Of a stretch of 64,000 nt of DNA, positions 2,557-57,251 are shown piece by piece. Both the position numbers and the translations under genes were made by a program. Each line of letters begins with the position of its first letter. Positions within the stretch are counted from its first letter, which is position 1. The notes beneath the pieces are model-generated. The model was not told where the DNA came from and made no database searches. It saw nothing but the letters and a program-made list of their open reading frames with translations. The stretch is from positions 1-64,000 of the forward strand of contig MGUI01000035.1 in the NCBI GenBank assembly GCA_001799895.1, written 5' to 3'. Source of the DNA: Elusimicrobia bacterium GWD2_63_28. Its GTDB lineage: Bacteria > Elusimicrobiota > Elusimicrobia > Elusimicrobiales > UBA9959.

Positions 2557-2585
2557 AATGCCGCCGCCCGTTTTTCCCGTGATTT

Positions 2586-3674: not shown

Positions 3675-3829
3675 AGTATCCCCTGATTTATCAAATAGTA
3701 TAACGGCCCGGGCCCCGGAAATCCCGAAGAAATCCCGAAGCCGGTCCGCGCTTAGATGATAGCAGCCGCCCATTTGGCAAAAGATTGCCTATTTGTTAAG
3801 ATAATATTAATGGACAACGAGGGCGGGAC

Positions 3830-4546
3830 GTGATTAAATTCGCGCTTTGGCTTATAACCCCTGACGCCGACCTGTCGGCCAGGTGGTACCGCGTTTTTTC
3901 CCGCGAATGCTTCCAGACCCTGATCTGCGCCTCCGTTGCCGAGTTCAAGCCTGACGCCGACACCTGGGGGCTGGTTTTCGTAGAGGCCGGCGCCGAAGGC
4001 CTGGGGTCCCCCGCCGAGCTGGCCGCCTTCCTGAAGGGCCGCAAGCATATTTCCGCCATAATTTTCTGCCCCCCCGCCAAGGCCTCCAACCAGCTGATCT
4101 CCGCCTTCCTGGAGAGCGGCGCCGACGATTTCATCCTGAGCGACCTCGACGAGAAGGTGCTGATCTCCAAGACCCGGGCCCACATACGCCGCCTGCTGCC
4201 TTCGCTGAACTCGGCCAGGACGCAGATCTGCTCGCGCTGCGGGGACATCGCCCTGGACAAGGCCCGGCGCACGCTGAAGACCGGCGTAGGCTCAAAAAAA
4301 GAAAAGACCATCGAGACGCTGACGCCGAAAGAATTCGACATTTTCTCGCTCCTGCTGGCCCACGAGGAAGAGGTGGTCTCCCGCGGCTACCTGATGGAAG
4401 AGGTCTGGAAGGACAAGTCCGGCAAGGTCAACACCGAAACCATCGACAAGCACGTCGAGACCCTGCGCAACAAGCTCGGCGACTACGGGCGCAAGATAAG
4501 GACCGTGTACGGCTCAGGCTACACATTCAAGGGCGGGGAGCGCTGA
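3830..4546 (+). CDS. OmpR/PhoB-type regulator with degenerate receiver
   Basis: A 238-residue protein with a receiver-like N-terminal half (about 1-120) and a winged-helix DNA-binding domain (about 145-236; ETLTPKEFDIFSLLLAHEEE, then YLMEEVWKD and VYGSGYTFKGG, as in PhoB/OmpR). The position expected for the phosphoacceptor Asp reads VFVEA, so Glu52 seems to replace Asp. A CSRCG pair lies in the linker. Translation probably starts at GTG 3830 after GAGGGCGGG; the nearby ATG at 3810 meets a stop within eight codons. It is the first gene of a plus-strand operon and sits 8 bp before an intact CheY-like receiver. DNA binding without classic phosphorylation is inferred from the missing Asp. Confidence 0.85.
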   Translation: MIKFALWLITPDADLSARWYRVFSRECFQTLICASVAEFKPDADTWGLVFVEAGAEGLGSPAELAAFLKGRKHISAIIFCPPAKASNQLISAFLESGADDFILSDLDEKVLISKTRAHIRRLLPSLNSARTQICSRCGDIALDKARRTLKTGVGSKKEKTIETLTPKEFDIFSLLLAHEEEVVSRGYLMEEVWKDKSGKVNTETIDKHVETLRNKLGDYGRKIRTVYGSGYTFKGGER

Positions 4547-4554
4547 GGAGAATT

Positions 4555-4929
4555 ATGAAAGTCCTGGTGGCTGACGACGACGATATTTTCAGGTCCCTGG
4601 TGACCGAGGTGCTGACCGAGGGCGGCTACGAAGTTTCCGCGCACGAGAACGGCCGCCTGGCCTGGGAACACCTGCAGGCCGAGGGCGCGGACATAGTCGT
4701 GCTCGACGTCAACATGCCCGAGATGGACGGCTTCGGCGTGCTGGCCAACATCCGCGGCGACGCGCGCTACAAGGGCCTGCCGGTGCTGATGCTGACGATC
4801 CGCGCTTTCGCGGAAGACCAGGTGCTGGGCTACGACAGCGGGGCCGACGACTACCTGACGAAGCCTTTCGATAACGACGTGCTGCTGGCCAGGGTAAAGG
4901 TCCTGGAGCGGCGCATACTCAACAGATAG
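4555..4929 (+). CDS. CheY-like single-domain response regulator
   Basis: A 124-residue stand-alone receiver domain with all hallmark residues: the acidic cluster DDDD at 7-10, phosphoacceptor Asp51 in VVLDVNMPEMDG, Thr81 in LMLT, and Lys103 in LTKPF. It has no output domain, so it must act through protein contacts. It lies 8 bp after the DNA-binding protein with the degenerate receiver and 9 bp before a small membrane protein. One reading is that this intact receiver carries the signal for its neighbour. No histidine kinase is encoded in this operon. Confidence 0.93.
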   Translation: MKVLVADDDDIFRSLVTEVLTEGGYEVSAHENGRLAWEHLQAEGADIVVLDVNMPEMDGFGVLANIRGDARYKGLPVLMLTIRAFAEDQVLGYDSGADDYLTKPFDNDVLLARVKVLERRILNR

Positions 4930-4938
4930 GGGAAAAAA

Positions 4939-5190
4939 ATGGACATCATACTCACAGTTTGCCTGATCATAGTGACCCTGGCCTTCGTGGCCCTGGTAGT
5001 GCAGGCCATCCTGACGCTGCAGCAGCTGCGCCACACGGCCAAGGCCGTGGAATACCTGGCGCTCAACGCCGACGGCAAGCTGACCGCGCTCGACCCGCTC
5101 ATCAGCGGGGTCAAGTCGGTCACCGCGGCCGTCTCCAGCGGCTGGTTCAAGGCCGCGCAGACCGTCTATGGCCTTTTCACGAGGGAATAA
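4939..5190 (+). CDS. Small single-span membrane protein (DUF948-like)
   Basis: An 83-residue protein with one N-terminal transmembrane helix (about 3-26, DIILTVCLIIVTLAFVALVV) and then an amphipathic helical stretch ending WFKAAQTVYGLFTRE. The layout resembles DUF948-type membrane proteins; I recognise no motif that gives a function. It is tightly packed in the operon: the next start codon follows its TAA stop directly. Confidence 0.75.
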   Translation: MDIILTVCLIIVTLAFVALVVQAILTLQQLRHTAKAVEYLALNADGKLTALDPLISGVKSVTAAVSSGWFKAAQTVYGLFTRE

Positions 5191-5682
5191 ATGGGCATCC
5201 TTAACCTGCTGAACACCATTTACGACGAGGAGATCCTGGCCAAGCTGGATTTCCTCAAGGGCATCAACCTCTTCGAGGGCATAAAGAAGCGCCAGCTGAT
5301 ACACGTGCTGGAGAGCCTGCAGGAGCGCACCTACCTCAAGGGAGAGACCATCTTCGCGCAGGGCGACATCGGCCGCGCGCTCTTCATAGTCTCCTCGGGG
5401 AAAATAGCGCTGTCGCGCCTGGACGCGGCCGCGCAGAAAGCCGAGGTCATCGCCGAGGTGAACCCCGGCGAGTTCTTCGGTGAGATGGCGCTTCTGGAGG
5501 AAATGCCCCGCACCGCCACCGCTACCGCCGCGGAGGACACCAAGGTCTTCATGCTGTTCAAGATCAAGCTGGATTCGCTGCTCTTCTCGCGCCCCAAGAT
5601 CGGCGTGGTGGTGGCCTCGCAGCTGGCCAGGATCCTTTCCGCCCGCCTGCGGGCCCTCCTGGAAAAGCCGGCGGAGAACTAA
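5191..5682 (+). CDS. Cyclic nucleotide-binding domain protein
   Basis: A 163-residue protein with one cNMP-binding (Crp/Fnr-type) domain at about 20-140. The beta-roll start GETIFAQGDIGRALFIVSSGKI and a phosphate-binding-cassette-like segment FFGEMALLEEMPRTATATA are visible; the Arg that would contact the cyclic phosphate is in PRTA. There is no C-terminal helix-turn-helix, so it is not a Crp-type transcription factor by itself. The ATG follows the preceding gene's TAA without a gap, indicating translational coupling. In this operon it may sense a nucleotide for the membrane proteins or regulators next to it; the partner is unknown. Confidence 0.88.
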   Translation: MGILNLLNTIYDEEILAKLDFLKGINLFEGIKKRQLIHVLESLQERTYLKGETIFAQGDIGRALFIVSSGKIALSRLDAAAQKAEVIAEVNPGEFFGEMALLEEMPRTATATAAEDTKVFMLFKIKLDSLLFSRPKIGVVVASQLARILSARLRALLEKPAEN

Positions 5683-5688
5683 CCCCCC

Positions 5689-6765
5689 ATGGCCTCCGAC
5701 ACCGCCCAGAAAAAGAGCTACGCCCAGTTCCTGCTGCCGGCCGTGATGGGGGCCGCGCTGCTGTATTTCATAGTGATGGCCAAGGGCGCCATCTTCCCCT
5801 TCATCCTCAGCGCGGCGCTGGCCTACGTGCTGAACCCGCTGATCTCCTACTTCGAGGTGCGCGGCATAAAGCGGGGCTACGCCGTGGTCGGGCTGTACCT
5901 GAGCGTGGGCGCGGTGCTGTCCATCGGCGTCTACCTGATGCTGCACTTCCTGTCCTACGACATCGAGTCCCTGCAGAAGTACTGGCCCACCTACGCCGAG
6001 CGGCTGCAGGCCTACGTCACCGACATGAACACGAGGATGGTAGCCAACTATCCCTTCCTCGCCAAGCTGGGGCTGGCGGCCAAGCTGCAGCATTTGCTGG
6101 AAATGGTGCCGCAGCTGCTGCTGTCGCTGCTGCCGGCGCTGACGCTGCTCTTCATCATCCCCTTCGTCACCTTCTTCCTGCTGGTGGGCGGCTCGGCCAT
6201 CATAGATTACCTGCTGGACCACCTGCCCTCGCGCCACGCCGAGCTGATCCTGCACGTGGCCTCGCGCATCGACGGCTCGCTGGGCAATTACCTGCGCGGC
6301 ATCCTGACCGAGGCCTTCGTGATCTTCCTGATAGCCTTCACCGGCCTGATGCTGATGGACCTGAACTACGCCGCGGTGATAGCCGTGCTGATAGGCTTCT
6401 CCAGCCTGATCCCGTACCTGGGCGCCATCGTCGGCGCCCTCCTCTCGTCGGTAGTGGCGTACCTGCAGTTCGGGGCCATTTTGCCCATCATCAAGATCCT
6501 CGCCTTCTTCACCGGCATCCGCTTCTTCGACGACTGGTTTTTGCAGCCCTACATCATGAAGAAAGCGGTGGACCTGAACCCCGCCGTGATCCTGCTGGCG
6601 CTGATGGCCGGCGCGGAGATAGGCGGCATCTGGGGCATAGTCTTCTCCATCCCGGTGACCTGCATCCTCAAGGAGCTGCTGCAGATAGCGGTGGAACTGC
6701 AGGAGACCGAGTTCCGCTGGAAGCCCAAGCCGGAGCCCACCCGCATCAGCATCCCCTACACCTGA
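5689..6765 (+). CDS. AI-2E family transporter (PerM/YdiK-like)
   Basis: A 358-residue integral membrane protein of the AI-2E/PerM family. It has the family layout: two or three N-terminal helices (LPAVMGAALLYFIVMA, FILSAALAYVLNPLISYF), a soluble segment at about 95-140, then a block of helices with the family hallmark FSSLIPYLGAIVGALLSS near residue 240 and DDWFLQPYIMKKAVDLNP after it. Members export autoinducer-2 or have been linked to ion or osmotic transport, so the substrate here is not known. It is the last gene of the operon and is followed by a strong terminator. Confidence 0.9.
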   Translation: MASDTAQKKSYAQFLLPAVMGAALLYFIVMAKGAIFPFILSAALAYVLNPLISYFEVRGIKRGYAVVGLYLSVGAVLSIGVYLMLHFLSYDIESLQKYWPTYAERLQAYVTDMNTRMVANYPFLAKLGLAAKLQHLLEMVPQLLLSLLPALTLLFIIPFVTFFLLVGGSAIIDYLLDHLPSRHAELILHVASRIDGSLGNYLRGILTEAFVIFLIAFTGLMLMDLNYAAVIAVLIGFSSLIPYLGAIVGALLSSVVAYLQFGAILPIIKILAFFTGIRFFDDWFLQPYIMKKAVDLNPAVILLALMAGAEIGGIWGIVFSIPVTCILKELLQIAVELQETEFRWKPKPEPTRISIPYT

Positions 6766-6784
6766 GCCCCGCCGGAAAATAAAA

Positions 6785-6815
6785 AAAGGGAACGTTTTAG
6801 CGTTCCCTTTTTTAT
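6785..6815 (+). terminator. Rho-independent terminator after the AI-2E transporter
   Basis: Stem AAAGGGAACG / CGTTCCCTTT around a short TTTTAG loop, followed by a T-rich tract. It sits 20 bp after the transporter stop. It also lies just past the 3' end of the convergent tRNA-Leu gene, so it may serve both strands. Confidence 0.9.
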
Positions 6816-6828
6816 TGGCCGAAAGTTA

Positions 6829-6912
6829 TGGGCGAGGAGGGAATCGAACCCTCATGACCGTGAGGCCGCAGGTTTTTGAGACCTGTGCGTCTACCAATTC
6901 CGCCACTCGCCC
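6829..6912 (-). tRNA. tRNA-Leu (anticodon CAA)
   Basis: On the minus strand the acceptor arms GGGCGAG and CTCGCCC pair, the D-arm has the GG-rich leucine pattern, and the anticodon arm is CAGGT-CTCAAAA-ACCTG, giving anticodon CAA. A long variable arm makes it a class II tRNA, and the T-loop TTCGATT is standard. Discriminator A73 fits leucine. CCA is not encoded. Confidence 0.95.
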
Positions 6913-6938
6913 GCACCGCTATTTTACAAAATTTACCG

Positions 6939-7646
6939 TTACTTCCCCGGGGCGCCCAGGCCCAGCAGGGCGTCCAGGCGCACCGGCTTCAGCCCCCGCC
7001 GGGCGGCTTCGTCGAGCAGCGCCTCCGTGACCTTGAGGTTTTTGCCTTTGTTCTTTCCCCCGCCGTCGTGCATCAGCAGGATGGCGCCCGGCTTGAGCGC
7101 CTTCAGGTACTCGGCCGCCATCTTGTCGTCGGACTGCCTGACCCAGTCGCTGCCGTAGGTCCAGTTGACCAGCGTGTAACCCAGGCGGCGGGCCGTCTCG
7201 CGCACCCAGGGGCGGTCGTAGCCGTTGGGCATGCGCAGCACCGTCGGGCGGATACCGCAGGCCGCCACCAGTGCCTTCTCAGCCTTATTGAGTTCCCCGG
7301 TCAGCACCGCCTCGCGGTCCTTAGCGTTCCCGATCTTGTACCAGTTCTTGTGCGTATCCGTGTGGCTGGCCACCAGGTGGCCCGCTCCGGCCAGCTTTTT
7401 CACCTGGGCGGGCTTGGCCCGGGCCGAGGACCCCAGGACGAAGAAGGCCGCTTTCACGCCGCGCTTGTCCAGCAGGGCCAGCAACTCGTCGGTGATCTGC
7501 CCGGGGCCGTCGTCGTAGGTGAGGGAGAATTCGTTTACCTTCGGGTCGCCGGCGGAGAAGAACTTGCCGGCGTGCGGGTTGCCGGCGGCGGAGCAGGTGC
7601 CGGCCAGGGCGAGGGTCAATACGGTGAGGATAGTTGTTTTCATCAT
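6939..7646 (-). CDS. Secreted polysaccharide deacetylase (NodB domain)
   Basis: A 235-residue protein with a short signal peptide (about 1-20, ending TCSAA) and a carbohydrate esterase 4 domain. Visible motifs are TYDDGP (catalytic base and metal Asp), SHTDTH (two metal-binding His), LRMPNG in place of the usual R-x-R-P-P motif, and LLMHDGGG with the late catalytic His. Such enzymes remove N-acetyl groups from peptidoglycan or other amino-sugar polymers in the periplasm or at the surface. It ends 26 bp from tRNA-Leu and lies 9 bp after the end of the ABC permease, so it may be the last gene of that operon. Confidence 0.92.
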   Translation of the reverse strand: MMKTTILTVLTLALAGTCSAAGNPHAGKFFSAGDPKVNEFSLTYDDGPGQITDELLALLDKRGVKAAFFVLGSSARAKPAQVKKLAGAGHLVASHTDTHKNWYKIGNAKDREAVLTGELNKAEKALVAACGIRPTVLRMPNGYDRPWVRETARRLGYTLVNWTYGSDWVRQSDDKMAAEYLKALKPGAILLMHDGGGKNKGKNLKVTEALLDEAARRGLKPVRLDALLGLGAPGK

Positions 7647-7655
7647 GTTGTCAGT

Positions 7656-9323
7656 TCACAGCTCGTGTCTCTCCAGGTTCCTTACGCCGGCCTTCCAGGG
7701 GATATAGAAGGCCGCCGCGTTGAGCGCGGCGAAGAGCGCGGCGCTCAACGCCACCGCGCGGGGATCCCACGGGTTGTCCCGGCCGAAGCGCTCGGCGAAG
7801 TGCATCTGCACCGGCCAGGCCTCCACCCCCACCAGCAGCGAGAGGTAGCCCATGGCGCAGGCCATGTAGAGGAAGCCGCCGTAGGACGACTCGAGCTGGT
7901 GTATATTCTCGACGTTAAAATCCGGGAAGACCGCGCCGAAGCCGATGCCCATGACGGTTATCACCACCGCAGCCACCAGGATGGTGAAGGTGGACAGGAC
8001 GGAGATGAAGAGGTCGGCGCCGAGCAGGTGGTTGGAAACGGTGATCAGCAGGAACCCCACTGCCAGCGACGGCAGCAGCGAGACCATGAGCTTCTCGCGC
8101 ATGACCGCGGCGGTGGTGAGGGGCGCCGACTTCAGCAGCCAGTAGCTGCTGCCCTCCAGGCTGATGGCCGGGAAGGTGAAGCGCAGGCCGATGGCGGCCA
8201 TCACGAAGCCCGCCACCCCGACGTTGAGGAAGGAGATGAAGCTTTTGATGTCGGGCGAGTCGAGCGGCAGCTGGCGGATGCTGAACAGGTAGACGGCCAC
8301 CAGCGCGGCTATCAGGATGATCTGCGACCAGTAGCGCGCGTCGCGCGCCAGCATCAGGCGGTCCTTCCAGTAGAGGGTCAGCGAGGGGCGCAGGAACGGG
8401 TACCTGGCGCCCAGGCGCTGCTCGGGCAGCGTCTCCCGCCGCCCCTTGAAGCGCGGCGAGCCCTGCGCGCCGCTGAAGCCGCGCATGTAGAAGCGGCCGG
8501 CCAGGTGGTAGATGAGCAAGTACAGCGCCCCGGCCACGCCGCACAGCACGCCGGCGCTGGCCGCGAAGGCGCCCCAGCTGCCGGCGGAATAGGCCACCAT
8601 GGCCTTGGTCACCCACCACGACGGCATGTAGGGCGCCGTCGGGGACTGCAGGTACTGTATATATTGCGCCACCACTTCCAGCGAATCCGGCCGCAGCAGC
8701 CGCTCGGGCCTGGAGAAGCGGAAGACCACGTAGACGAAGCCCACCGACAGGCTGCCGAGCATCCAGGTGACGTCGCGCGTCTTGGACGACGGGAAGTAGT
8801 ACATCACCAGCATGCTGAAGAAGATGCCGAAAGCCCCGGCCAGCATGACGAAGGGCGCCATCAGGAAGAGGTAGGCCAGGTAGAAGCCGAAGTCCAGGCC
8901 CTTTATGCGCCCCAGGGCTATGATGTAGGGCAGGATGGCCAGGATCAGCGTCCACGACGAGTAGAACACCGTCTCCAGCGCCTTGTCCATGAAGACGGAC
9001 CGGGAATCCAGCGGGCAGGAGAACAGGAATTTCAGGTCGAAGGAATAATAGAGCGTCGTCATGGAGATTATGATCGACGAGACTATCACCATGGAGAAGG
9101 TCATCAGCAGCACCATGGAGGTGAGCTTCCAGGAGAGCATCGGGCCTATCAGCTCGACGCCCTCGAGGTAATTGAGCAGGCGCCAGAAGCCGGTGTAGAG
9201 CGCGGCCAGCATCAGCATGCCCACGCCGGCGAACAGCAGGTTCTTGATGAGCTTCCAGCCGCGCAGGCCCAGCAGCGCGTTGCGCAGGGTGACGGCTTTG
9301 CGGACCAGCAGGACGGGCAGCAT
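7656..9323 (-). CDS. ABC transporter permease (ABC-2-like exporter)
   Basis: A 555-residue polytopic membrane protein with roughly 11-12 predicted helices and no soluble domain. The segment ISLEGSSYWLLKSAPL between helices is typical of a family of putative ABC exporter permeases. Its ATG comes one base after the TAA of the ATP-binding subunit, so translation is coupled and the pair forms one exporter. The substrate cannot be told from sequence. The polysaccharide deacetylase directly downstream may hint at an envelope role, but that is inference. Confidence 0.88.
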   Translation of the reverse strand: MLPVLLVRKAVTLRNALLGLRGWKLIKNLLFAGVGMLMLAALYTGFWRLLNYLEGVELIGPMLSWKLTSMVLLMTFSMVIVSSIIISMTTLYYSFDLKFLFSCPLDSRSVFMDKALETVFYSSWTLILAILPYIIALGRIKGLDFGFYLAYLFLMAPFVMLAGAFGIFFSMLVMYYFPSSKTRDVTWMLGSLSVGFVYVVFRFSRPERLLRPDSLEVVAQYIQYLQSPTAPYMPSWWVTKAMVAYSAGSWGAFAASAGVLCGVAGALYLLIYHLAGRFYMRGFSGAQGSPRFKGRRETLPEQRLGARYPFLRPSLTLYWKDRLMLARDARYWSQIILIAALVAVYLFSIRQLPLDSPDIKSFISFLNVGVAGFVMAAIGLRFTFPAISLEGSSYWLLKSAPLTTAAVMREKLMVSLLPSLAVGFLLITVSNHLLGADLFISVLSTFTILVAAVVITVMGIGFGAVFPDFNVENIHQLESSYGGFLYMACAMGYLSLLVGVEAWPVQMHFAERFGRDNPWDPRAVALSAALFAALNAAAFYIPWKAGVRNLERHEL

Positions 9324-9324
9324 G

Positions 9325-10047
9325 TTATTCGGTGAGTTCCAGGAAGACGTCCTCGAGCGAGCGGACGCCAGGCGCGGCGGTCATCTTCTTGACTTCCTCC
9401 ACGGTGCCCTTGGTGATGAGGCGCCCGCGGTAGATGATGCCCACGGTATGGCAGAGCTTCTCGGCCATGTCGAGGATATGGGTGCACATGAAGACGGCCG
9501 CGCCCTCGCGGGCGATGTCCGCGAGCAGGCCCTTGAAGCGGCGGATGCTCTTGGGGTCCAGCCCCACGGTGGGCTCGTCGAAGAGCACGGCCCTGGGGCG
9601 CCGCAGCAGCACGGAGGCGATCAGCAGCTTCTGCTTCATGCCGTGGGAATAGCTCTCGAGCAGCTCGCCGGAGGCCGCCGTCAGCTCGAACATGTCAAGC
9701 AGCCCGGGGATGCGCTTCTTCTGGTCGTGCAGCGGCACGGCGTAGATGTCGCCGATGAAGCGCATGAACTCCCAGCCTGTCAGCTTGGGGTAGACGAAGG
9801 GCTCGTCGGGGATATAGGCCATGGCGCGCTTGGCGTCCAGCGGGCGGGCCGCCACGTCGAAGCCGGCCACGGAGACCGAGCCCGAGGTGGGGCGCATGAT
9901 GCCGGAAAGGATCTTGACGGTGGTGGTCTTGCCCGCCCCGTTGGGGCCGAGGAAGCCGAAGATCTCGCCGGGCTCGACGCGCAGCGAAAGGCCGTCCACC
10001 GCCTTGAACGAACCGAAAGTCTTGGTGAGGTTGTTAATTTCGATCAT
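9325..10047 (-). CDS. ABC transporter ATP-binding protein
   Basis: A 240-residue ABC ATPase with Walker A GPNGAGKTT, Q-loop region, signature SHGMKQK (a variant of LSGGQ), Walker B AVLFDEPTVGLDP and switch His in MCTHILD. I start at ATG 10047 (MIEINNLTKTFG), because a frame opening further upstream would run through the terminator hairpin. The C-terminal segment ending LEDVFLELTE is common in drug or lipid exporters of the ABC-2 class. It pairs with the permease that starts one base after its stop. The terminator upstream separates it from the SurA-N-type gene, so the exporter probably has its own promoter. Confidence 0.93.
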   Translation of the reverse strand: MIEINNLTKTFGSFKAVDGLSLRVEPGEIFGFLGPNGAGKTTTVKILSGIMRPTSGSVSVAGFDVAARPLDAKRAMAYIPDEPFVYPKLTGWEFMRFIGDIYAVPLHDQKKRIPGLLDMFELTAASGELLESYSHGMKQKLLIASVLLRRPRAVLFDEPTVGLDPKSIRRFKGLLADIAREGAAVFMCTHILDMAEKLCHTVGIIYRGRLITKGTVEEVKKMTAAPGVRSLEDVFLELTE

Positions 10048-10052
10048 CGCTG

Positions 10053-10089
10053 TAAAAAAAGCGCCGACCGGCTTGGGCCTGGTCGGCGC
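10053..10089 (-). terminator. Rho-independent terminator after the SurA-N-type gene
   Basis: On the minus strand GCGCCGACC pairs with GGTCGGCGC around an 11-nt loop and is followed by seven T. It ends the M23/bactofilin/SurA-N operon and separates it from the ABC exporter genes. Confidence 0.92.
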
Positions 10090-10107
10090 GTCCCGCAAAC
10101 CGGGCTG

Positions 10108-10806
10108 TCAGCGGCCCTGCTCGCGCTGCTCCAGGTAGCTCTTAACTTCCTGGCGCGTCGTCAGCTGGCGCAGCAGGTAGTTGGCTATGTTGGCGAACTT
10201 GTCGCGCGCCAGTTCGTCGGTGTACTTGGCGCGCTCCTTCTCGAAATTGCTGAGGTTCCGGTGCTTGGCGAAGTAGTAGGCCTTCACCTCGTCGGGGGTG
10301 ACCTTCACGCTGGTGTAGATGAACTGCTTGAACTTGGTGGCCAGGCGGGCCTTCTTGCGCCAGGCCTCGTACTCGGCCGGGGACATCTGGAACTCGCTGA
10401 AAATGGTCTGGTAGTAGGCGCGCGGGCTGAACTGGCCGTTCTCGCGGAACTGCGGCGTGTTCTGCACCTCGACGGCCACCTCGAAGTCCGGCACCATCAT
10501 GCCCATCTTCTCGCCCTGCTGGCTGAGCAGCTCCTCGATGATCATCTCGCGGAAGACTTCCTGCTTGACGCTCTTGGAAAGGATTTCGTTGACCTCGGCG
10601 CCGGAATCCTTCACGCCGGCCATGACCCGGTTGACCTGGGTGACGAACTGGCGGTAGGGAATCGGGGTGCCGCCCACCTCGGCCACCGAGGTGTCGGCGT
10701 CGGAGGTGAAGACGTAGGCGCCCAGGCCCACGAAGACGCCGACGAGGAAGATGGAGACCGTGCCGATGAAGACTACGCGGCGGTGCTTGGAGAAAAATGA
10801 GATCAT
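10108..10806 (-). CDS. SurA-N/PpiD-like membrane-anchored periplasmic protein
   Basis: A 232-residue protein with a cytoplasmic basic N-terminus, one transmembrane helix (about 11-32) and a periplasmic helical domain. VAEVGGTPIPYRQFVTQVNR and the following helices resemble the SurA N-terminal chaperone domain of PpiD, PrsA and SurA. The parvulin peptidyl-prolyl isomerase domain that normally follows is absent, so it should be a chaperone or scaffold, not an isomerase. Its ATG overlaps the bactofilin stop by four bases (ATGA), implying coupled translation and a link to the cell-shape cluster. A terminator follows. Confidence 0.82.
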   Translation of the reverse strand: MISFFSKHRRVVFIGTVSIFLVGVFVGLGAYVFTSDADTSVAEVGGTPIPYRQFVTQVNRVMAGVKDSGAEVNEILSKSVKQEVFREMIIEELLSQQGEKMGMMVPDFEVAVEVQNTPQFRENGQFSPRAYYQTIFSEFQMSPAEYEAWRKKARLATKFKQFIYTSVKVTPDEVKAYYFAKHRNLSNFEKERAKYTDELARDKFANIANYLLRQLTTRQEVKSYLEQREQGR

Positions 10807-11219
10807 TGCTGTTTAGCCTCTGTTTTTGAATTTTTCGGCTGCGGCTGCTCCGCGGCCTTCCTGGGAACGTCCATCGAGCAGTTGCCGTTGAAAATGGCCC
10901 CTTCCTCGAGCATGATGCGCGGGGCGCGCATGTCGCCGTCCACGCGGGAACCCGAAAAAGCCTCTATGTGGTCGAGCGCGGTGACGTTGCCCTTCACCTC
11001 GCCGGAGACGTAGCAGATCTCGCAGGAGATGTCGCCCTTGACCTTGCCCGACTTGCCCACGGTGACGATCTTGGCGTCTACGATGGAGCCGTCGATGCGG
11101 CCGTCCACGCGCAGCGAGCCCTTGGCCGTCAGCGTGCCCTGGAAATACGCCTCGTTGCCGATGACCGTATCCCCGTTCTTGGTCTCAAAACTGATGTTGG
11201 TGTTCTTGAACATTGCCAT
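10803..11219 (-). CDS. Bactofilin (polymer-forming cytoskeletal protein)
   Basis: A 138-residue bactofilin. The core (about 20-118) shows the repeating short beta-strands of the family's right-handed beta-helix: GNEAYFQGTLTAKGSLRVDGRIDGSI, then VGKSGKVKGDISCE and DMRAPRIMLEEGAIFNG. A flexible lysine- and glutamine-rich tail follows. Bactofilins polymerise without nucleotides and place peptidoglycan hydrolases. Here the gene lies one base after an M23 peptidase, a pairing known from other bacteria, which supports a joint role in cell shape. Confidence 0.93.
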   Translation of the reverse strand: MAMFKNTNISFETKNGDTVIGNEAYFQGTLTAKGSLRVDGRIDGSIVDAKIVTVGKSGKVKGDISCEICYVSGEVKGNVTALDHIEAFSGSRVDGDMRAPRIMLEEGAIFNGNCSMDVPRKAAEQPQPKNSKTEAKQQ

Positions 11220-11220
11220 A

Positions 11221-12201
11221 TCACAGCCCCCCGAAAATTCCGTCGAACAGCCCGGCGAAGTTGCCGGCGCGCTTGCCCCCCACCTGCAGGTACTTCATGG
11301 GGTCGCGCGGCAGGCCGCCGGTCCACACCTCGTAGTGCAGGTGGTTGCCGGTGGAAGTGCCGGTGGAGCCCATGCGGCCTATGGTCTGGCCGCGCCTGAC
11401 GGGCGTGCCTTCCTTGGCGACTATCTCGCTCATGTGGCCGTAAAGGGTGGAATAGCCGAAGCCGTGGTCGACCACGGCGCACATGCCGTAGCCCTGGGCC
11501 CAGCCCGAATGCCGGATGACGCCGTCGGCGGCCGCCAGGACGGGCGTGCCGGCCTCGTTGGCGATGTCGACGCCGCTGTGGTATTCGGTGGACAGGCGCA
11601 GCGGGTGGATGCGGTAGCCGTAGGAAGAGGTGATGCGGCCCTCGGCGGGCCAGATGGACGGCGTGGCGCGCGCGCCGTTATGCTTGTCGGTCAGGTAAAG
11701 GGTAACTTCGGAATAGCTGGAGAGGCGCTTGCGCGACTCTTCCTGCATCTTCTGGATGGAATTGTTGAGCGAGGCCTCTTTTATCTCCGAAGCCTTGGCG
11801 TTGAGCAGCTTGCGGAAATCGGCCAGGTCGGACTCCTGCGGGCCGCCGAGGCCCTCTTCCCTGTTGAAGGCGGCGGGGTCCATGCCCAGCACCTTGCGCA
11901 GCTGGCTGTCGGTGCGCTTGGTCATCTCCAGGTAGGCCAGGCCCTTCTCCACCTGCTCGGAGACGTAGGCCATCTTGGTGCGCAGGATCTTGTTGTCCGC
12001 CTTGGTGACGTAATAGTCGAAATGGCGGCCGGCTATGTAGCCCGCCCAGATGGTCATGCCGGTCCAGGTGACGCCCAGGACCAGCAGGAACATGACCGGC
12101 AGGTTGAACCTGACCGAGGGCATGCCGTTGTGCGGAATTATGAAAACGCTGACCGGTTTAGCCGCGTTCTTGAGGAAGCGCGTAAGGGTTCTAAGCCACA
12201 T
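11221..12201 (-). CDS. Membrane-anchored M23 (LytM) peptidase
   Basis: A 326-residue peptidase with one transmembrane helix (about 35-57), a helical coiled-coil stretch (about 65-165) and a C-terminal M23 domain (about 190-300). The zinc site is visible as H in YHSGVDIA, with Asp two residues on, and as HLHYEV; GWAQGYGMCAVVDHG and YGHM complete the fold. M23 enzymes cut peptide cross-links of peptidoglycan. The gene heads an operon with bactofilin and the SurA-N-type protein. A -35/-10 pair lies so close that the mRNA could begin at or next to the ATG. Confidence 0.93.
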   Translation of the reverse strand: MWLRTLTRFLKNAAKPVSVFIIPHNGMPSVRFNLPVMFLLVLGVTWTGMTIWAGYIAGRHFDYYVTKADNKILRTKMAYVSEQVEKGLAYLEMTKRTDSQLRKVLGMDPAAFNREEGLGGPQESDLADFRKLLNAKASEIKEASLNNSIQKMQEESRKRLSSYSEVTLYLTDKHNGARATPSIWPAEGRITSSYGYRIHPLRLSTEYHSGVDIANEAGTPVLAAADGVIRHSGWAQGYGMCAVVDHGFGYSTLYGHMSEIVAKEGTPVRRGQTIGRMGSTGTSTGNHLHYEVWTGGLPRDPMKYLQVGGKRAGNFAGLFDGIFGGL

Positions 12202-19280: not shown

Positions 19281-19949
19281 TCATACGCTTTTCAAATAAA
19301 ACCGGTTCAGTATGTCAAAACCGGCTTCCAGGTCCGCCTTCAGGCCGCAATCCCCGGCCATTTCAGAGAAGCGTTTCCCCCATGCCGCCGGGGCCGGCGC
19401 AAGGGCCGCAGGAACGGGATGACTTTTCCTCCGGTCGAACACGGACCTCAAGGCATCCTTTGTTTTAGCCGTGGAAAGGCTGCCTTCTTTGATCAGCAGC
19501 ACCATATCCACCAAGTCCCGCACGCGGGAGTTCGGCACGGAGCGCGGCATGGTATAGGAGTGCAGTTTCTCGGCGAACTGTACTTCCTTAGGAAGCAGCG
19601 GGAAAGCCGCCGGCTTGATACCGGCGAAAGACAGCAGCCCCTGCTCATATGCGGTCTCAAGTTTCTCCGGGATAAAGTCGCCTACGGCCACATCTACATG
19701 AAAAGATACGAACAGCCGGTCGTCTACTATCGCGCGTACCGGATACCTTGCCCCGCCGTAAATCGGACCGTCCAACTCCATCTGAACGCCGCCAATCTCA
19801 AACCCGAAGAAATCTCCGAGGTCAGCCGTCGCGGCGCCGGCCAGCAGCCGCTGCAGGTTGAGGCCCGAATCCGCAGCATGCTTCTGCAACCGGCGCTCCA
19901 GTGCCACGCGAAAATCCTTGGCCGATTTATAAGACTTTGCTTTAGTCAT
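19281..19949 (-). CDS. AbiEii-type nucleotidyltransferase toxin, internally shortened
   Basis: A 222-residue member of the AbiEii/AbiGii toxin family by its ends: AKDFRVALERRLQKHAADSG at the N-terminus, then FHVDVAVGD, QFAEKLHSYTMPR, NSRVRDLVDMVLL and FDRRKSHPVP. From my knowledge of this subfamily (usually near 290-300 residues), the segment after residue 35 should hold LKGGxALExR and the acidic TKDIDL motif of the nucleotidyltransferase centre. Here NLQRL joins directly to LAGAATADLGDFF, so about 75 residues are missing in frame, around 19840. It should lack catalysis. Its ATG overlaps the antitoxin stop (ATGA). It may be a decayed toxin or an altered partner. Confidence 0.8.
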   Translation of the reverse strand: MTKAKSYKSAKDFRVALERRLQKHAADSGLNLQRLLAGAATADLGDFFGFEIGGVQMELDGPIYGGARYPVRAIVDDRLFVSFHVDVAVGDFIPEKLETAYEQGLLSFAGIKPAAFPLLPKEVQFAEKLHSYTMPRSVPNSRVRDLVDMVLLIKEGSLSTAKTKDALRSVFDRRKSHPVPAALAPAPAAWGKRFSEMAGDCGLKADLEAGFDILNRFYLKSV

Positions 19950-20512
19950 TTTTCAGGTGAAACCATATCCGCCTCAGCGGGCGTCATAATCCCCAGCCGG
20001 ACAGCCTGCTTAGCCGCCAGCTTGATCTCATTGGCGTCCATCAGTTGGGCGGAAAACATATCCTGCAGCGTTTTTAGCGGGGTCGTCACAAAATAGCCCT
20101 GTCGTTTTTTTATTTCCGACTCTTTGAGTTCAGCGCGATGCATGACGATCCCCTTCGGTGGGGAATTAAATTTACGGAACTTTGGCGGGACTGTCATATG
20201 AAGCTTGGCGGGATTAGCGTCAGTGATCTCATAAAGGGAAAGGGCCGTCTGGTAGGAATAAACCCCCTGTACTTTTCCGCCACGGTCCATAGACCAAAGC
20301 GACCACAGCACCAGGTCCGGGCGGTCGGATACAGGGAACTTGGCGAGACGATAGATACCGCGCTGTTCACGCAGCCATTCTCCGGATTTGGCATGAAAAT
20401 AGGCGGCATCCCGGTAATAGCCGGCGGATAGCGCCTGTTTATAGGTGAAATAGCCCTGCTGACTTTCGGCTAGTTCAAACAGTTTTTCTGAGGCTGTGCG
20501 ATTCTTTGACAT
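19946..20512 (-). CDS. AbiEi-type antitoxin/transcriptional regulator
   Basis: A 188-residue protein of the AbiEi family. The N-terminal ~75 residues form a winged helix-turn-helix (GYFTYKQALSAGYYRDAAYFHAK, then LREQRGIYRLAKFP), and the rest is the AbiEi C-terminal domain with SYQTALSLYEITDANP and TTPLKTLQDMF. In type IV abortive-infection systems this protein neutralises the toxin without direct binding and represses its own promoter at inverted repeats. A perfect short palindrome lies in its promoter. No ribosome binding site is apparent before ATG 20512. The intact antitoxin next to a shortened toxin suggests it persists as a regulator. Confidence 0.9.
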   Translation of the reverse strand: MSKNRTASEKLFELAESQQGYFTYKQALSAGYYRDAAYFHAKSGEWLREQRGIYRLAKFPVSDRPDLVLWSLWSMDRGGKVQGVYSYQTALSLYEITDANPAKLHMTVPPKFRKFNSPPKGIVMHRAELKESEIKKRQGYFVTTPLKTLQDMFSAQLMDANEIKLAAKQAVRLGIMTPAEADMVSPEK

Positions 20513-20766: not shown

Positions 20767-21315
20767 TCATAGATATTCGATAAAATCCACGTATATGCGG
20801 AAACTGCGCGCTCCCGCAAACTCGTCCGTCTTGAACTTTTTTATCACCACCAGAGCGCTCCCACAAGTTTCATGCATCGAACCCCGTAAGCGGAACATCT
20901 CTCCTGAATTCTCCACATACACAGACTTGCCCTCCTCCCCATTATACAGCGCCTTATCCTCCCCGACACTTCTTAAACACCAGATAGCCGGCTTGCCCAG
21001 GGTATCAACCGGGGCGGTAGTGAGAACGGTCTCATAAGTAAGGTCCAAACGCTTAGCCTGTTCGCGCAGGGGGGCTATGACTTTCCTGCGGGCGCGCTCT
21101 TCCCTGAAGGCAGGAAGCCACGACTGAACCCAGAGGTTCGCCAGCATACCGATAAGTATCAGCAGCAGCCCTTCGAACGAGAAGAAGAGGATATTCTTCA
21201 CGTCAAGCCGCTTTAGTGGTTCCCCAGGGACGCGCAGAAGATACCAACACGACCAGAGAGCGGACCCATCCCGGGATCCTCCAAGAGAAGTTGGGGGCGA
21301 CTCGCCGCGTTCCAT
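20767..21315 (-). CDS. Membrane-anchored protein of unknown function
   Basis: A 182-residue protein with one probable transmembrane helix (about 42-65, ILFFSFEGLLLILIGMLANLW), then a soluble domain ending SFRIYVDFIEYL. The start is uncertain: ATG 21315 has a weak AGAGAA site, and a GTG at 21201 just before the helix is possible. It begins 18 bp after the stop of the O-antigen-ligase-like gene and so looks like the last gene of the ECF sigma operon. I do not recognise a family. Confidence 0.6.
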   Translation of the reverse strand: MERGESPPTSLGGSRDGSALWSCWYLLRVPGEPLKRLDVKNILFFSFEGLLLILIGMLANLWVQSWLPAFREERARRKVIAPLREQAKRLDLTYETVLTTAPVDTLGKPAIWCLRSVGEDKALYNGEEGKSVYVENSGEMFRLRGSMHETCGSALVVIKKFKTDEFAGARSFRIYVDFIEYL

Positions 21316-21333: not shown

Positions 21334-23625
21334 TCAGAAAAACCCTGAAGCAGCGATATACTTTATGGCCGCTTCATGATCGGTATCATCTGGCAGGGTC
21401 CTCACACTGACTCGCTCCAGTTGCACCACGCGCACGCGGCCGCGCCAGCCGGGGCCCGCGTCTTCAGGCGACCTGGCTTTGTTCCTCCCGGATCCGGGCC
21501 ATACTGTCAGCGTCAATTTTGTTCCAGCTTCGCCAGTCAATGCGCGGGCAGCTTCCTCCGCGGTGAATTTCCTGGGAACGAAGATCTTGTCCTCACCTTT
21601 GTAATTGTGCGGTTCGCGGGGAGTAATATCGAAGATCTGGTCCCCTGGCCTAAGACCGGCCTTATCCGCGGGAGCGTTTGGGGAAACTTCGGAGATAATC
21701 ATCATTCCATCGGTGAATGAGACCCGCATTCCTATACCGCCGAGCAGCCCTGATTTCTGCGCCGCCCGTGTATCCCGGGACTTCTCCGCGGGGTTCTTTA
21801 GCATTTCTTCCGCTTTATTTTCAGCGTACTCCGCTTTTTCCAGGTCCCCCTCGGCCTTATAGACACCGGCCAGCGCCGTCCAGGCCTCCGGCCATACCGG
21901 GTCCAGCAGAACCTGCCGCTCAAGGCGCTCAACGGCCTCCTTGTAGCGGCCCAGTTTTTGGAGCGCGATGCCTTCCCTGTAGTGCACCTGCACGTAGTCG
22001 GGAGCTAGTGCCCTTACCTGCCGGTAATATTCAAGTGCTCTCTGCGGGTTCCCGGTACCGGCGTCCATAGAAACGTTGCCCAGAAAATATCTGCTCATAA
22101 TATAACTCCCTGCCCACGGAACTTCCCGCCCATAGGTCCACATGGCCTGATCCCACTGCATCGTTTTGGAATGGAATATAGCCATGTTATGGTCGAGGTC
22201 CGACTGGAACGCGCGCAGCGAACCGTATCCCAGCAAAACCGCCGCCGCGACGACAGGCAACACCAGGATGTGTCTGGTTTTATTCAGAGGGAGCGGCAGA
22301 GCGAACACTTTTCCCTCTCCATCCTCCCCCTCCGCCGCCAGCACGGCCAGAAGCCCCGCGGCAAAATATATATGCCACCCGGGAGCAGGGAACCGGGAAG
22401 AAATGGATCCCAGCATAAGTATGACGCTTCCGCTGACCGCGGCGAATAGCCCTGCGCTATACGGGTTTACACTTCCGGCACCGTTCCTGACTAAAACCTT
22501 GGCGCTCTTGATGAGCAGGCCGCCGAAAAGCCAGAGCCACAGGATCAGCCCCGGCAAACCGCCGTCCGCCCACTGCTCCAGAAATTCGTTTTCAGGATGA
22601 TCGGTCTCGTTATTATGCTTGCCTTCTATGGCGAAGACCTCCGCACGCCTGAAAGCCGGGTAATGTACCCAGAATGAACCAGGCCCGGAACCCAGAAAAG
22701 GCTGCGATTTGATAAGCTCCGCTGTGCCCTTCCAGGTTTCGGACAGGAACGCGTAATGCCTGTTGTTGGCCGGTGTCGGGACCGGACCGGCCAATGGGAT
22801 AGACGCGGCCAGCGCGGATATCCCGGACAACACAAGGACCGCCGTGCGCAGCCGCGTCCCGAGTCCCCTCCAGGATATTGCCGCGAATATGCCTACAGAG
22901 AAGATGAACGCCCACCTGCCGACGACCTCGCCGGTCCGCTGCAGCAGGAACGCGCCGGCCACGGCGAGGATCCCTGCGGCAACGCGCAGCCATATCGGCT
23001 CCGCTTTATCCGACGCGAAAGCAAGACCTAGCGGCACGCAGATGATCAGATAAGCGGCGAACAGGGTAGGATTCGCCAGCGTGGAGAATACTCTGGCGCC
23101 GAACGCGCCCCGCCAGACGAACGGGTCCAGCCCGAAATATTGCACGAACCCGTATATCACGGAAACGGTCCACGCGCCCATGAGCATAAGCAGCGCCTTA
23201 CGCATGTCAGCTCTGGAAAAGCTCAACAACACCAATATGAACGTCAGAAGGAATATCTCCTGCATAAGAAAACCATGGAGAGCGGCCAGCCGGTAATCCG
23301 AAACGGCAAAACGCAGCGCGTTCCAGGAGAGCAGGAGAACGGCAGGCAGCACCAACGGGACAGCCTTCTCCGGGAGCTCAAAGCGCCCATCCGTGACACT
23401 CCCGATCAGCCAGATCGCCACCGCGGACAGCGCGCCAAGTTGAAGCATAGTGATCTTCACCATTGCGGAGTCATAGGTGCGCAGATAAAAAGCCAGCGGC
23501 AGCATTATTGCCAGGAAGTAAAACGCCGCTTTTAACAGAGCACGCCAGTTAGGCATCTCAGGGAACCTGGAGATCGCAGGTTCCGGGTTCAGAGTGATAT
23601 CCTTAAGGTCCATGTTCGTCTCCAT
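21334..23625 (-). CDS. O-antigen ligase/polymerase-like protein fused to TPR and PDZ domains
   Basis: A 763-residue protein. The first ~490 residues are polytopic (about 12 helices) with Wzy/WaaL-type features: a loop with SQPFLGSGPGSFWVHYP and the HPENEFLEQWADGGLPGLILW segment typical of the Wzy_C domain. Residues about 520-610 hold TPR-like helices (LEYYRQVRALAPDYVQVHYR, KLGRYKEAVERLERQVLLDP). Residues about 625-735 are a PDZ-like domain (VSPNAPADKAGLRPGDQIFD). The family joins glycans to lipid or protein acceptors. The added PDZ is unusual and suggests recognition of a protein C-terminus. It starts one base after the anti-sigma gene, so it is part of the sigma operon. Confidence 0.87.
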   Translation of the reverse strand: METNMDLKDITLNPEPAISRFPEMPNWRALLKAAFYFLAIMLPLAFYLRTYDSAMVKITMLQLGALSAVAIWLIGSVTDGRFELPEKAVPLVLPAVLLLSWNALRFAVSDYRLAALHGFLMQEIFLLTFILVLLSFSRADMRKALLMLMGAWTVSVIYGFVQYFGLDPFVWRGAFGARVFSTLANPTLFAAYLIICVPLGLAFASDKAEPIWLRVAAGILAVAGAFLLQRTGEVVGRWAFIFSVGIFAAISWRGLGTRLRTAVLVLSGISALAASIPLAGPVPTPANNRHYAFLSETWKGTAELIKSQPFLGSGPGSFWVHYPAFRRAEVFAIEGKHNNETDHPENEFLEQWADGGLPGLILWLWLFGGLLIKSAKVLVRNGAGSVNPYSAGLFAAVSGSVILMLGSISSRFPAPGWHIYFAAGLLAVLAAEGEDGEGKVFALPLPLNKTRHILVLPVVAAAVLLGYGSLRAFQSDLDHNMAIFHSKTMQWDQAMWTYGREVPWAGSYIMSRYFLGNVSMDAGTGNPQRALEYYRQVRALAPDYVQVHYREGIALQKLGRYKEAVERLERQVLLDPVWPEAWTALAGVYKAEGDLEKAEYAENKAEEMLKNPAEKSRDTRAAQKSGLLGGIGMRVSFTDGMMIISEVSPNAPADKAGLRPGDQIFDITPREPHNYKGEDKIFVPRKFTAEEAARALTGEAGTKLTLTVWPGSGRNKARSPEDAGPGWRGRVRVVQLERVSVRTLPDDTDHEAAIKYIAASGFF

Positions 23626-23626
23626 G

Positions 23627-24043
23627 TTATTTATTGAGATTCAAAAAGTTCGCTTGAGGAACCCGCCCGGTCCAAACAGGCCCCGGGATACCCGGCCCCA
23701 ACAGCGAACTGGAAAGCGAAAAAATGAACGCCAGGAAGCTAAAGGCCAGCGACAGGGAAGGGGTGCGGGCCGGGAACAACTCATAGGAAAACCCCAAGTC
23801 CGGCTCAGCCGCAGCCCGGCCTGAAACAACGGCTTTCCGTATTGAAGCGGCAAGATCAGCCGGAGGCTGCGGAACAGGCAATGCACGCAGGGCGAACAAG
23901 AGACGGCGCATCGAGGCAACCCGCTCAGCACAGGCGGGGCAGGAGCCCAAATGACGTTCCACCCAGCGCGCCTGCGAGGCGGCAAGCCGGCCATCCGCAT
24001 ACAGATCCAGCATGTTTTCAACGCACGCGCATACCATGTTCAT
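23627..24043 (-). CDS. Anti-sigma factor with zinc-finger (zf-HC2) domain
   Basis: A 138-residue protein. Residues about 5-45 hold the anti-sigma zinc domain: C-x-C near the start and HLGSCPAC, the H-x3-C-x2-C signature. A central linker is followed by one transmembrane helix (about 95-116, SLAFSFLAFIFSLSSSLLG) and a short external tail. It overlaps the upstream sigma gene by four bases, the usual arrangement for an anti-sigma factor that holds its sigma partner at the membrane. Confidence 0.9.
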   Translation of the reverse strand: MNMVCACVENMLDLYADGRLAASQARWVERHLGSCPACAERVASMRRLLFALRALPVPQPPADLAASIRKAVVSGRAAAEPDLGFSYELFPARTPSLSLAFSFLAFIFSLSSSLLGPGIPGPVWTGRVPQANFLNLNK

Positions 24044-24561
24044 ATTCCATCCCCTCGTTGCAGCATATCCCGGAGTAGTCTTCGCGCCCGGAACAGCCTG
24101 CCGGACACGCTTCCTACCGGCCAGCCGAGTATTTCCGCTGCTTGTACGTAGTCATGGCCCTCCACATCCACCAAGACTACGCAGGCGCGCAGCTCCGGCG
24201 GCAGGGTGTTAAGGGCCGACGCAAGCTTATCTCTGAGCTCGGCAGCTTCGGAGAGTTTCTCAGGAGACTCGCCATTCCCGGCCTCCGGCCCCTGGAACGA
24301 AGACTCATCCCCCTGCAAAGTCTCAAGTGGGACCTCCCGCCTGCGGCTCTGCGCGCGGCGGCTGTTCAGATAGACGCGGAACAGCATACGGTGGAGCCAG
24401 CCGCCAAAATCAAAAGTCTCATCGTAAAGCTCCGCTTTCTCAATAACCCGCACAAAAGTTTCCTGCACCAGATCGCAGGCGTCGGTCTGATTCCCGGTCA
24501 GGCGGTAGGCGGCGACATATGCCTTGCCGCTGTACGCTTCAATTAAGCTGTTTATATCCAC
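24040..24561 (-). CDS. ECF-type RNA polymerase sigma factor
   Basis: A 173-residue sigma factor with region 2 (about 5-70; AYRLTGNQTDACDLVQETFVRV, with the core-binding DLVQETF pattern) and region 4 (about 112-165; LPPELRACVVLVDVEGHDYVQAAEILGWPVGSVSGRLFRAR). No extracytoplasmic sensor is attached. It heads an operon with its anti-sigma factor, the O-antigen-ligase-like fusion and a small membrane protein, so it probably controls an envelope-glycan response, including its own operon. Confidence 0.94.
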   Translation of the reverse strand: MDINSLIEAYSGKAYVAAYRLTGNQTDACDLVQETFVRVIEKAELYDETFDFGGWLHRMLFRVYLNSRRAQSRRREVPLETLQGDESSFQGPEAGNGESPEKLSEAAELRDKLASALNTLPPELRACVVLVDVEGHDYVQAAEILGWPVGSVSGRLFRARRLLRDMLQRGDGI

Positions 24562-25129
24562 TAGATATCCCGTTCGCGGAGAATTACCGCATAGTTGCCC
24601 GCACTATAACTACACCGGCGGCAGTCAAAAAAATACAGCCAATGCCGGACGACTTAAAAAAGATTCTTGAGTTGTTTAATGCTGAAGAACCTATACCTCG
24701 ACATATCCCTTAACTTAACAGGGCTATTTTACAAAACCAGAATTGGCTTTAGCGGCATTATTCCTGGTCGGGTGATTACGCCATATTGGGAACAGTTCAG
24801 GCGGGCCAGGCAGGGGACGGCTTCTCGCGGATAAGATCCGCCTACCGCAGCTCCAGGGGAAAAGCGTAACCTGTTAAGTTACCTCGGGATGTTGCGCAAA
24901 GTAGTTCCGAACGATGTCCAAAAAACGGCGCCACAATTTCAACAGCACAAACCGCCGGCATTCCCGGCGGTTTTGTATTTCTCCCCCAGGCTATCAGTTT
25001 ACGCCCGGGATAACGTAAATCATTAAAAGGTAGAATTAGTTCAGGCCGGAGGCAGGGACGCGGGTTTACAAAGCGAACGGTTAATAAAGCACGAGCTATG
25101 GCTAAAAAGATTTCTACGGGAGACGCCGC
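24562..25129. other. 568-bp gap between divergent sigma and YqaA-like genes
   Basis: No convincing gene. It should contain the promoters of the sigma operon (leftward) and of the YqaA-like gene (rightward). It also holds the right copy of the 170-bp direct repeat with an orphan terminator hairpin (about 24948-24975) that no adjacent gene points into. Confidence 0.6.
24823..24987 (+). repeat. Diverged direct repeat, right copy (partner 18771-18944)
   Basis: It has the same order of blocks as the left copy, including AGTTACCTCGGGATGTTGCG and the AAACCGCCGGC/CCGGCGGTTT hairpin. In the left copy this hairpin ends a gene; here neither flanking gene ends nearby, which marks this copy as displaced or relic sequence. 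Confidence 0.85.
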
Positions 25130-56789: not shown

Positions 56790-57251
56790 TTAGAAGGTCG
56801 ACCAGGGGGTAAGGATCGCGGTATCGCCGCGGCCCTTTATGTCCTCGTGGGTGCAGCCCACGATGAAGTTGCCCCAGGTGGCGGAATGGCTGGAGTCATT
56901 GTAGTAAGCCCAACCAGCGCCGTCAGTCGGAGCCACGCCGGCGGTGACAGCGGTCACGGTGCGGGCATCGGCGTGCGTCGTGCCGGGAGCCTTGGCAAGC
57001 GGGATCTCGGCGATATACTTCGCGTTCAGGGTGATGCAGGCGAGCGTGTCGGCCGGGAACCAGCCTTCGTTGTCGCCGTAGTACACCTGGATAGCGCTGC
57101 GGACCGAGGAGAGAGCGCCCTTCGTGGCGCCTTCCTTGGACTTGTTGATCAGGTCGGCGAACTTCGGTATGGCGATGGCAGCCAGAATACCGATGATGGC
57201 GACGACGATCATGAGCTCTATCAGGGTGAAGCCCTTCTTATTGTTTTTCAT
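56790..57251 (-). CDS. Type IV pilin/GspG-like pseudopilin
   Basis: A 153-residue prepilin. The leader MKNNKKG is cut before [20 protein letters not shown], the class III signal with Glu5, and the long helix continues to about residue 50. The globular part has two Cys (CITLN and VGCTH) that may form a disulphide. A strong AAGGAGGA site precedes the ATG. It is a major-pilin candidate given its stand-alone place and strong translation signals, though a minor role cannot be excluded. Confidence 0.93.

Follow-up and report, generated by a model that had tools for sequence, protein, structure and literature searches.

An ECF sigma factor and its anti-sigma factor are encoded immediately upstream of an O-antigen-ligase-like protein that carries TPR and PDZ domains in the window, that is, the whole 64,000 nt stretch of Elusimicrobia bacterium GWD2_63_28 analyzed here. 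This raises the question of what the sigma factor controls, and of what a ligase-like membrane protein does with a PDZ domain. A sequence-only reading had proposed a protein O-glycosylation enzyme under envelope-stress control, with the PDZ domain recognizing protein C-termini.

Gene order, conservation and promoter of the cassette

The three genes expected from that reading were confirmed by their ORFs and Pfam matches; they are all on the minus strand and span positions 21334–24561. The sigma factor (24040–24561) contains regions 2 (Sigma70_r2, E 1.7e-13) and 4 (Sigma70_r4_2, E 5e-14) only, as assigned from Pfam/NCBIfam models and from its orthologs in other cassettes. The anti-sigma factor (23627–24043) has a zf-HC2 domain (E 6e-8) with an HxxxCxxC zinc motif and, according to hydropathy, one transmembrane segment (TM) near residues 97–115 followed by a periplasmic stub of around 20 residues, as corresponds to a membrane-anchored zinc-finger (ZAS) anti-sigma factor; alignment of the family revealed a conserved GxP(S)Q element in the stub. 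A cysteine pair of the CSDxxxxVC type follows the TM in the anti-sigma factors from G186, G230, G028 and G022, and is absent from those of G000 (the genome of the window) and its relatives; redox sensing is possible in the lineages that carry the pair.

The third ORF (21334–23625, 763 residues) matches Wzy_C (E 7e-7), TPR_19 (1e-9) and PDZ_6 (5e-7). We prefer as its start the ATG at 23613, which is preceded 7 nt upstream by GGAG and agrees with the start of the ortholog from G042, resulting in a fusion of 759 aa (21334–23613) from whose start all residues are numbered here. The sigma and anti-sigma ORFs have 4 nt in common (24040–24043), whereas the anti-sigma and fusion ORFs are separated by 1 nt if the ATG at 23625 is taken as the start, or by 13 nt with that at 23613; the proposed coupling of the genes by overlaps thus holds for the first junction and not for the second.

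The order sigma/anti-sigma/Wzy_C-TPR occurs in 17 of 341 Elusimicrobiota genomes, a count that takes in G210, whose sigma gene is cut by the contig end. The other bearers belong to families f1 (G000, G042, G026, G011, G028, G022, and G033), f14 (G186) and f15 (G230, G231, G227, G195, G196, G203, G206, and G207), making three families in all, and the sigma orthologs upstream of the ligase are 37–81% identical. The named relatives found were Elusimicrobia MAGs. Additionally, the ligase lies at a contig edge in G013, and is present without the sigma pair in G041. An upstream gene and a gene further downstream are common to the loci of G000 and G042.

The gene following the fusion (20767–21315, minus strand) codes for a one-TM protein of a lineage-specific family. 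It had been taken as the last gene of the operon and as a membrane protein of no known family: a Pfam search indeed gave no significant match, but the gene lies outside of the three-ORF span, and members of its family occur in 35 of 336 genomes of the phylum, mostly elsewhere than beside the cassette. Since this family is scattered and adjoins the cassette only in G000 and G026, we rejected it as a dedicated cassette part. An AbiEi antitoxin/AbiEii toxin pair (type IV toxin-antitoxin; 19281–20512, minus strand) is located just downstream of the operon, and was not seen in the stretch that separates the ligase from the next shared gene in G042.

The sequence TGTATTT-N13-CGGTGTA precedes the sigma gene in eight cassettes, with zero or one substitution and an invariant N13 spacing, and its −10-like element ends 36–49 nt before the sigma start codon. 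In the window it occupies positions 24611–24637 (minus strand), with the −35-like element at 24631–24637 and the −10-like element at 24611–24617, 49 nt upstream of the sigma start. G186 contains a weaker form, and a changed form is found in the f15 group, whose sigmas are only around 37% identical. Genome-wide pattern scans retrieved a single exact site, and none with one mismatch, in G000, G026 and G028, and a single one-mismatch site in G042, G230 and G231, each of them at the operon. There was one extra one-mismatch match in G022 and two in G011, all inside ORFs, and two-mismatch matches were about as frequent as matches to the reversed pattern. Of 11 near-matches inspected in G000, G022, G011 and G013, 10 overlap an ORF and one has no downstream gene.

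Because the promoter is the sole genome-wide match with up to one mismatch in six genomes, the sigma factor appears to control only its own operon, as far as recognizable matches go, since a pattern scan would overlook further targets whose promoter is more degenerate. The presence of this footprint at its own operon, together with the restriction to regions 2 and 4, points to an autoregulated ECF sigma factor. The sequence-only reading had advised looking for the promoter upstream of 24561 and genome-wide, and the finding of a conserved site only at this operon supports its claim that the sigma controls the fusion. The frequency of sites with one or two mismatches, at about the reversed-pattern rate, and the location of the inspected near-matches lend no support to a large envelope-stress regulon; envelope stress would be the signal by analogy with the ECF/ZAS type of the pair, and no wider regulon was found. 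With the operon as the only recognizable target, the product of its third gene should therefore be the output of the switch. The pair thus resembles known ECF/ZAS pairs in its sigma regions, HxxxCxxC motif, single TM and putatively autoregulated promoter, and differs from them in having its own operon as single recognizable target, a very short stub, and a WaaL-fold/TPR protein as the third gene product.

Fold and signature residues of the membrane domain

An AlphaFold2 model of the fusion (pLDDT 79.8) had WaaL, 7tpg, as its top PDB match (Foldseek E 1e-5, probability 1.00). Likewise, 7tpg was the only entry matched (E 4e-6) in a profile search of the PDB with a core-only alignment, used instead of the full alignment because the latter was swamped by TPR matches. 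Both results predict a polytopic WaaL O-antigen-ligase fold for residues 23–470 (22204–23547, minus strand). Similarity to the Pfam model PF04932 (Wzy_C) is borderline, with 29.5–29.9 bits in hmmscan vs. a cut-off of 31.7, and 32.6 bits in another search done with its neighbors; 16 of 20 family members matched Wzy_C at E ≤ 0.01. The membrane domain is followed by a TPR domain (residues 487–606; 21796–22155, minus strand), supported by Pfam and by AlphaFold2 helices mostly with pLDDT >90.

Residues R215, R288 and H338 are important in WaaL from Escherichia coli and are conserved in PglL (PMC3643930). Their counterparts in 7tpg, matched by sequence profile and motif position, are R191, R265 and H313, which align with Val230, Leu290 and Glu341 of the fusion. 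In place of the WaaL catalytic Arg/Arg/His set, the fusion and the other cassette ligases have a motif HNxxTxHxxNE (H333-N-N-E-T-D-H339-P-E341-N342-E343; 22585–22617, minus strand), with E341 at the position of the catalytic His. The core set shows no or almost no variation in this motif, which is also widespread among the housekeeping TPR-Wzy_C paralogs of the phylum, and most other Wzy_C proteins from G000 retain an H[NS] motif. HNxxTxHxxNE is partly or fully lost, with the operon persisting, in G022, G013, G028, G033 and a group of f15 (G195, G196, G203, G206, G207, and G227). The window protein therefore shares with WaaL (PF04932; 7tpg/7tpj) the membrane fold, the order of helices, the GxGxGxF motif and the first His of the HAHN region, and differs in the V230/L290/E341 replacements, the added TPR and PDZ domains, and an operon with its own sigma/anti-sigma pair. 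HNxxTxHxxNE may be an alternative active site.

The explanation that we favor, and that we hold to be about evenly balanced between right and wrong, is that the operon produces an inducible and self-limited glycan-handling protein with a periplasmic TPR(-PDZ) arm for docking proteins. At rest, the zinc-finger anti-sigma factor would retain the sigma factor at the inner membrane, and an envelope signal received via its single TM and short periplasmic stub would release it. The freed sigma would then transcribe, as far as visible, its own operon only, yielding more sigma, more anti-sigma, which would make the response self-limiting, and the WaaL-fold protein. This protein would handle a lipid-linked glycan at the periplasmic face via the Elusimicrobiota-type HNxxTxHxxNE site, serving instead of the Arg/Arg/His set, and its periplasmic TPR domain, plus in a few species an S41-derived PDZ, could serve to dock a partner or acceptor protein, probably through binding of C-terminal peptides. 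Counting against glycan handling, Arg/Arg/His are all substituted, the HNxxTxHxxNE signature decays in several cassettes with a persisting operon, genes for glycan synthesis were not recognized beside that of the window, and no acceptor was identified.

The lack of WaaL-type catalytic residues and the decay of the signature in several lineages with an intact cassette also favor the main rival explanation, according to which the WaaL-fold/TPR(/PDZ) protein has no catalytic activity and acts on the anti-sigma factor as a sensor or co-regulator. It would sense lipid-linked glycan or the C-termini of unfolded proteins and control sigma release, by analogy with the DegS PDZ on RseA. A partner sensor is plausible because the anti-sigma factor has so few periplasmic residues, and the tight spacing and constant order of the genes also speak for it. 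However, a pure sensor would leave the circuit without an output if its own operon is the only target, the cassette encodes no protease, most cassettes are devoid of a PDZ, and G041 retains the ligase in spite of having no sigma pair; we regard this model as possible and rather unlikely.

Paralogs beside pilus genes

In five f1 genomes (G000, G042, G050, G012 and G021), a housekeeping pair of TPR-Wzy_C genes immediately adjoins an OmpA-like/PilM/PilO(/secretin) block encoded in the same direction, which suggests a pilus-linked glycan ligase in Elusimicrobiota. The pair from G000 is at L052 (C58) 181–11883 (minus strand), with equivalents in L173, L174, L175, and L178; one of its members contains Glu in place of the WaaL His. 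A second pair of ECF sigma and zf-HC2 anti-sigma genes lies around 4.7 kb from these ligase genes (L052, 16540–17977, plus strand), divergent from a gene for a VIT-VWA protein. In L039 and L042, TPR-Wzy_C relatives were also found in the vicinity of type IV pilin genes; these pilin genes (L042:5732, minus strand; L039:2981, minus strand, and 9894, plus strand) are from Elusimicrobiaceae and relatives. The evidence for the TPR-Wzy_C family serving pili or proteins is thus circumstantial, coming from gene neighborhoods, and genes of this kind are absent from beside the sigma cassette.

The pilus-operon or near-pilin setting of these signature-sharing paralogs is that described for PglL genes (PMC3643930), and it favors, together with the carboxylate loop retained by the PDZ, the original proposal of a protein O-oligosaccharyltransferase under envelope-stress control that picks its acceptors by their C-termini. 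Nevertheless, the PglL_A model PF15864 did not match the fusion ORF at E ≤ 1 and was absent from the matches of the 20 family members at E ≤ 0.01, among the matches listed (25 of 29 families); the R, R and H residues of WaaL/PglL are all replaced; and there is no adjacent acceptor gene, as a prepilin-motif scan of the cassette loci found none near any examined cassette except for one 34 kb off in the window. The latter is a type IV pilin gene at 57236 (minus strand), far from the operon. Furthermore, most orthologs are without PDZ, and therefore the choice of acceptor cannot generally depend on this domain. The window protein is thus akin to the PglL/PilO O-oligosaccharyltransferases in belonging to the Wzy_C superfamily and in having paralogs in pilus operons, and unlike them in the absence of a PF15864 match, the replaced catalytic His, and the lack of a pilin beside the cassette. 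As it was put forward, the glycosylation claim is not supported by these results, and we consider it improbable.

The PDZ domain and the C-terminal tail

The PDZ domain (residues 625–733; 21415–21741, minus strand) aligns with the PDZs of S41 C-terminal processing proteases (CTP) from the same phylum; the glycines of the GxG carboxylate loop (G9 and G11 in the alignment) and a PA..AG..P.D pattern are invariant, while the fusion PDZs have around 15 extra residues in the middle. The PDZ was of low confidence in the full AlphaFold2 model, and when S41 PDZs were added to the alignment the domain model had a mean pLDDT of 73 (80–91 in its best blocks). Foldseek matched this model to Prc, the V. cholerae CTP PDZ and CtpA (E 4e-6 to 9e-6), as well as to D1P, leading us to reject a different fold. 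With the GGIG carboxylate-binding loop at 625–628, these results uphold the earlier identification of the domain as a PDZ, and specify it as of the S41/CTP type. The protein has no Ser/Lys core and the ORF ends 26 residues past the PDZ. Compared with S41 proteases (Prc, CtpA, D1P) and their TPR adaptors (NlpI, LbcA), in which TPR and CTP-type PDZ work together (solved complexes 5wql and 8sxe-8sxh), the window protein has the same type of PDZ, but lacks the protease domain and has TPR and PDZ fused in one polytopic membrane protein.

We found the PDZ in four genomes only (G000, G026, G011, and G186). A search for other Wzy_C-TPR-PDZ fusions, as recommended initially and covering Elusimicrobiota, thus retrieved three more, one of them from another family; they are continuous and show 43–53% identity to the window fusion, ruling out an assembly chimera. 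The ligase from G042, the nearest relative (78% identical), stops about where the PDZ would begin, and in a tree G000 groups with G042 (100/100), the distribution of the PDZ requiring three changes. Because of this tree and of the identity to the other fusions, the sequence comparisons point to an old PDZ fusion that was lost in places, the alternative being repeated gain. Since the PDZ is missing from most orthologous cassettes, it is accessory rather than central to the system. G050, which belongs to the genus of G042, retains a decayed relic of the C-terminal tail of the PDZ protein, away from any ligase (L074, 9255–9371, minus strand). In G026, the PDZ-coding end is found a second time, in almost identical form and with no clear start (L044, 5257–5754, minus strand), preceded by a short stretch resembling transposase remnants.

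C-terminal hydrophobic residues are typical PDZ ligands. A conserved AI..IA.S..F tail with Phe as its last residue (residues 745–759 of the fusion; 21337–21381, minus strand) is common to the four PDZ bearers and the G050 relic, the C-termini of the four bearers being SGFF, SRSF, SRSF, and SAHF. Self-binding is therefore possible, although that the PDZ is a module for binding the protein's own C-terminal Phe, within or between molecules, leading to auto-inhibition or oligomerization instead of client recognition, seems to us very improbable, considering that the shared tail is known from only five, partly related sequences and that it could simply pack into the fold, as in the low-confidence AlphaFold2 helix at 746–755. 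A composite of these ideas is speculative and quite improbable: an ECF circuit confined to one operon would have as its sole output, and possibly as its feedback sensor, a repurposed WaaL-type glycan ligase fold without the classical catalytic residues, whose PDZ, derived from a protease, would be gated by the C-terminal Phe of the same protein until the C-terminus of another protein competes it away.

Each part of the system is of a known kind. The literature search returned nothing on Wzy_C-TPR-PDZ fusions or ECF-controlled O-antigen ligases, and the combination of an ECF circuit limited to one operon, a WaaL fold lacking the classical residues and a protease-less S41 PDZ was not found in the literature searched. 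If our favored explanation is right, this would be a branch of the WaaL superfamily with a different active-site signature, or with none, under a sigma factor of its own, apparently serving a single operon. It would also provide a clean and simple ECF circuit whose promoter could be used as a marker, as well as an example, open to testing, of the transfer of a PDZ from a protease to a membrane protein that handles glycans. More generally, the phylum-wide HNxxTxHxxNE signature and its linkage to pilus operons may point to how Elusimicrobiota glycosylate their pili or surface structures.
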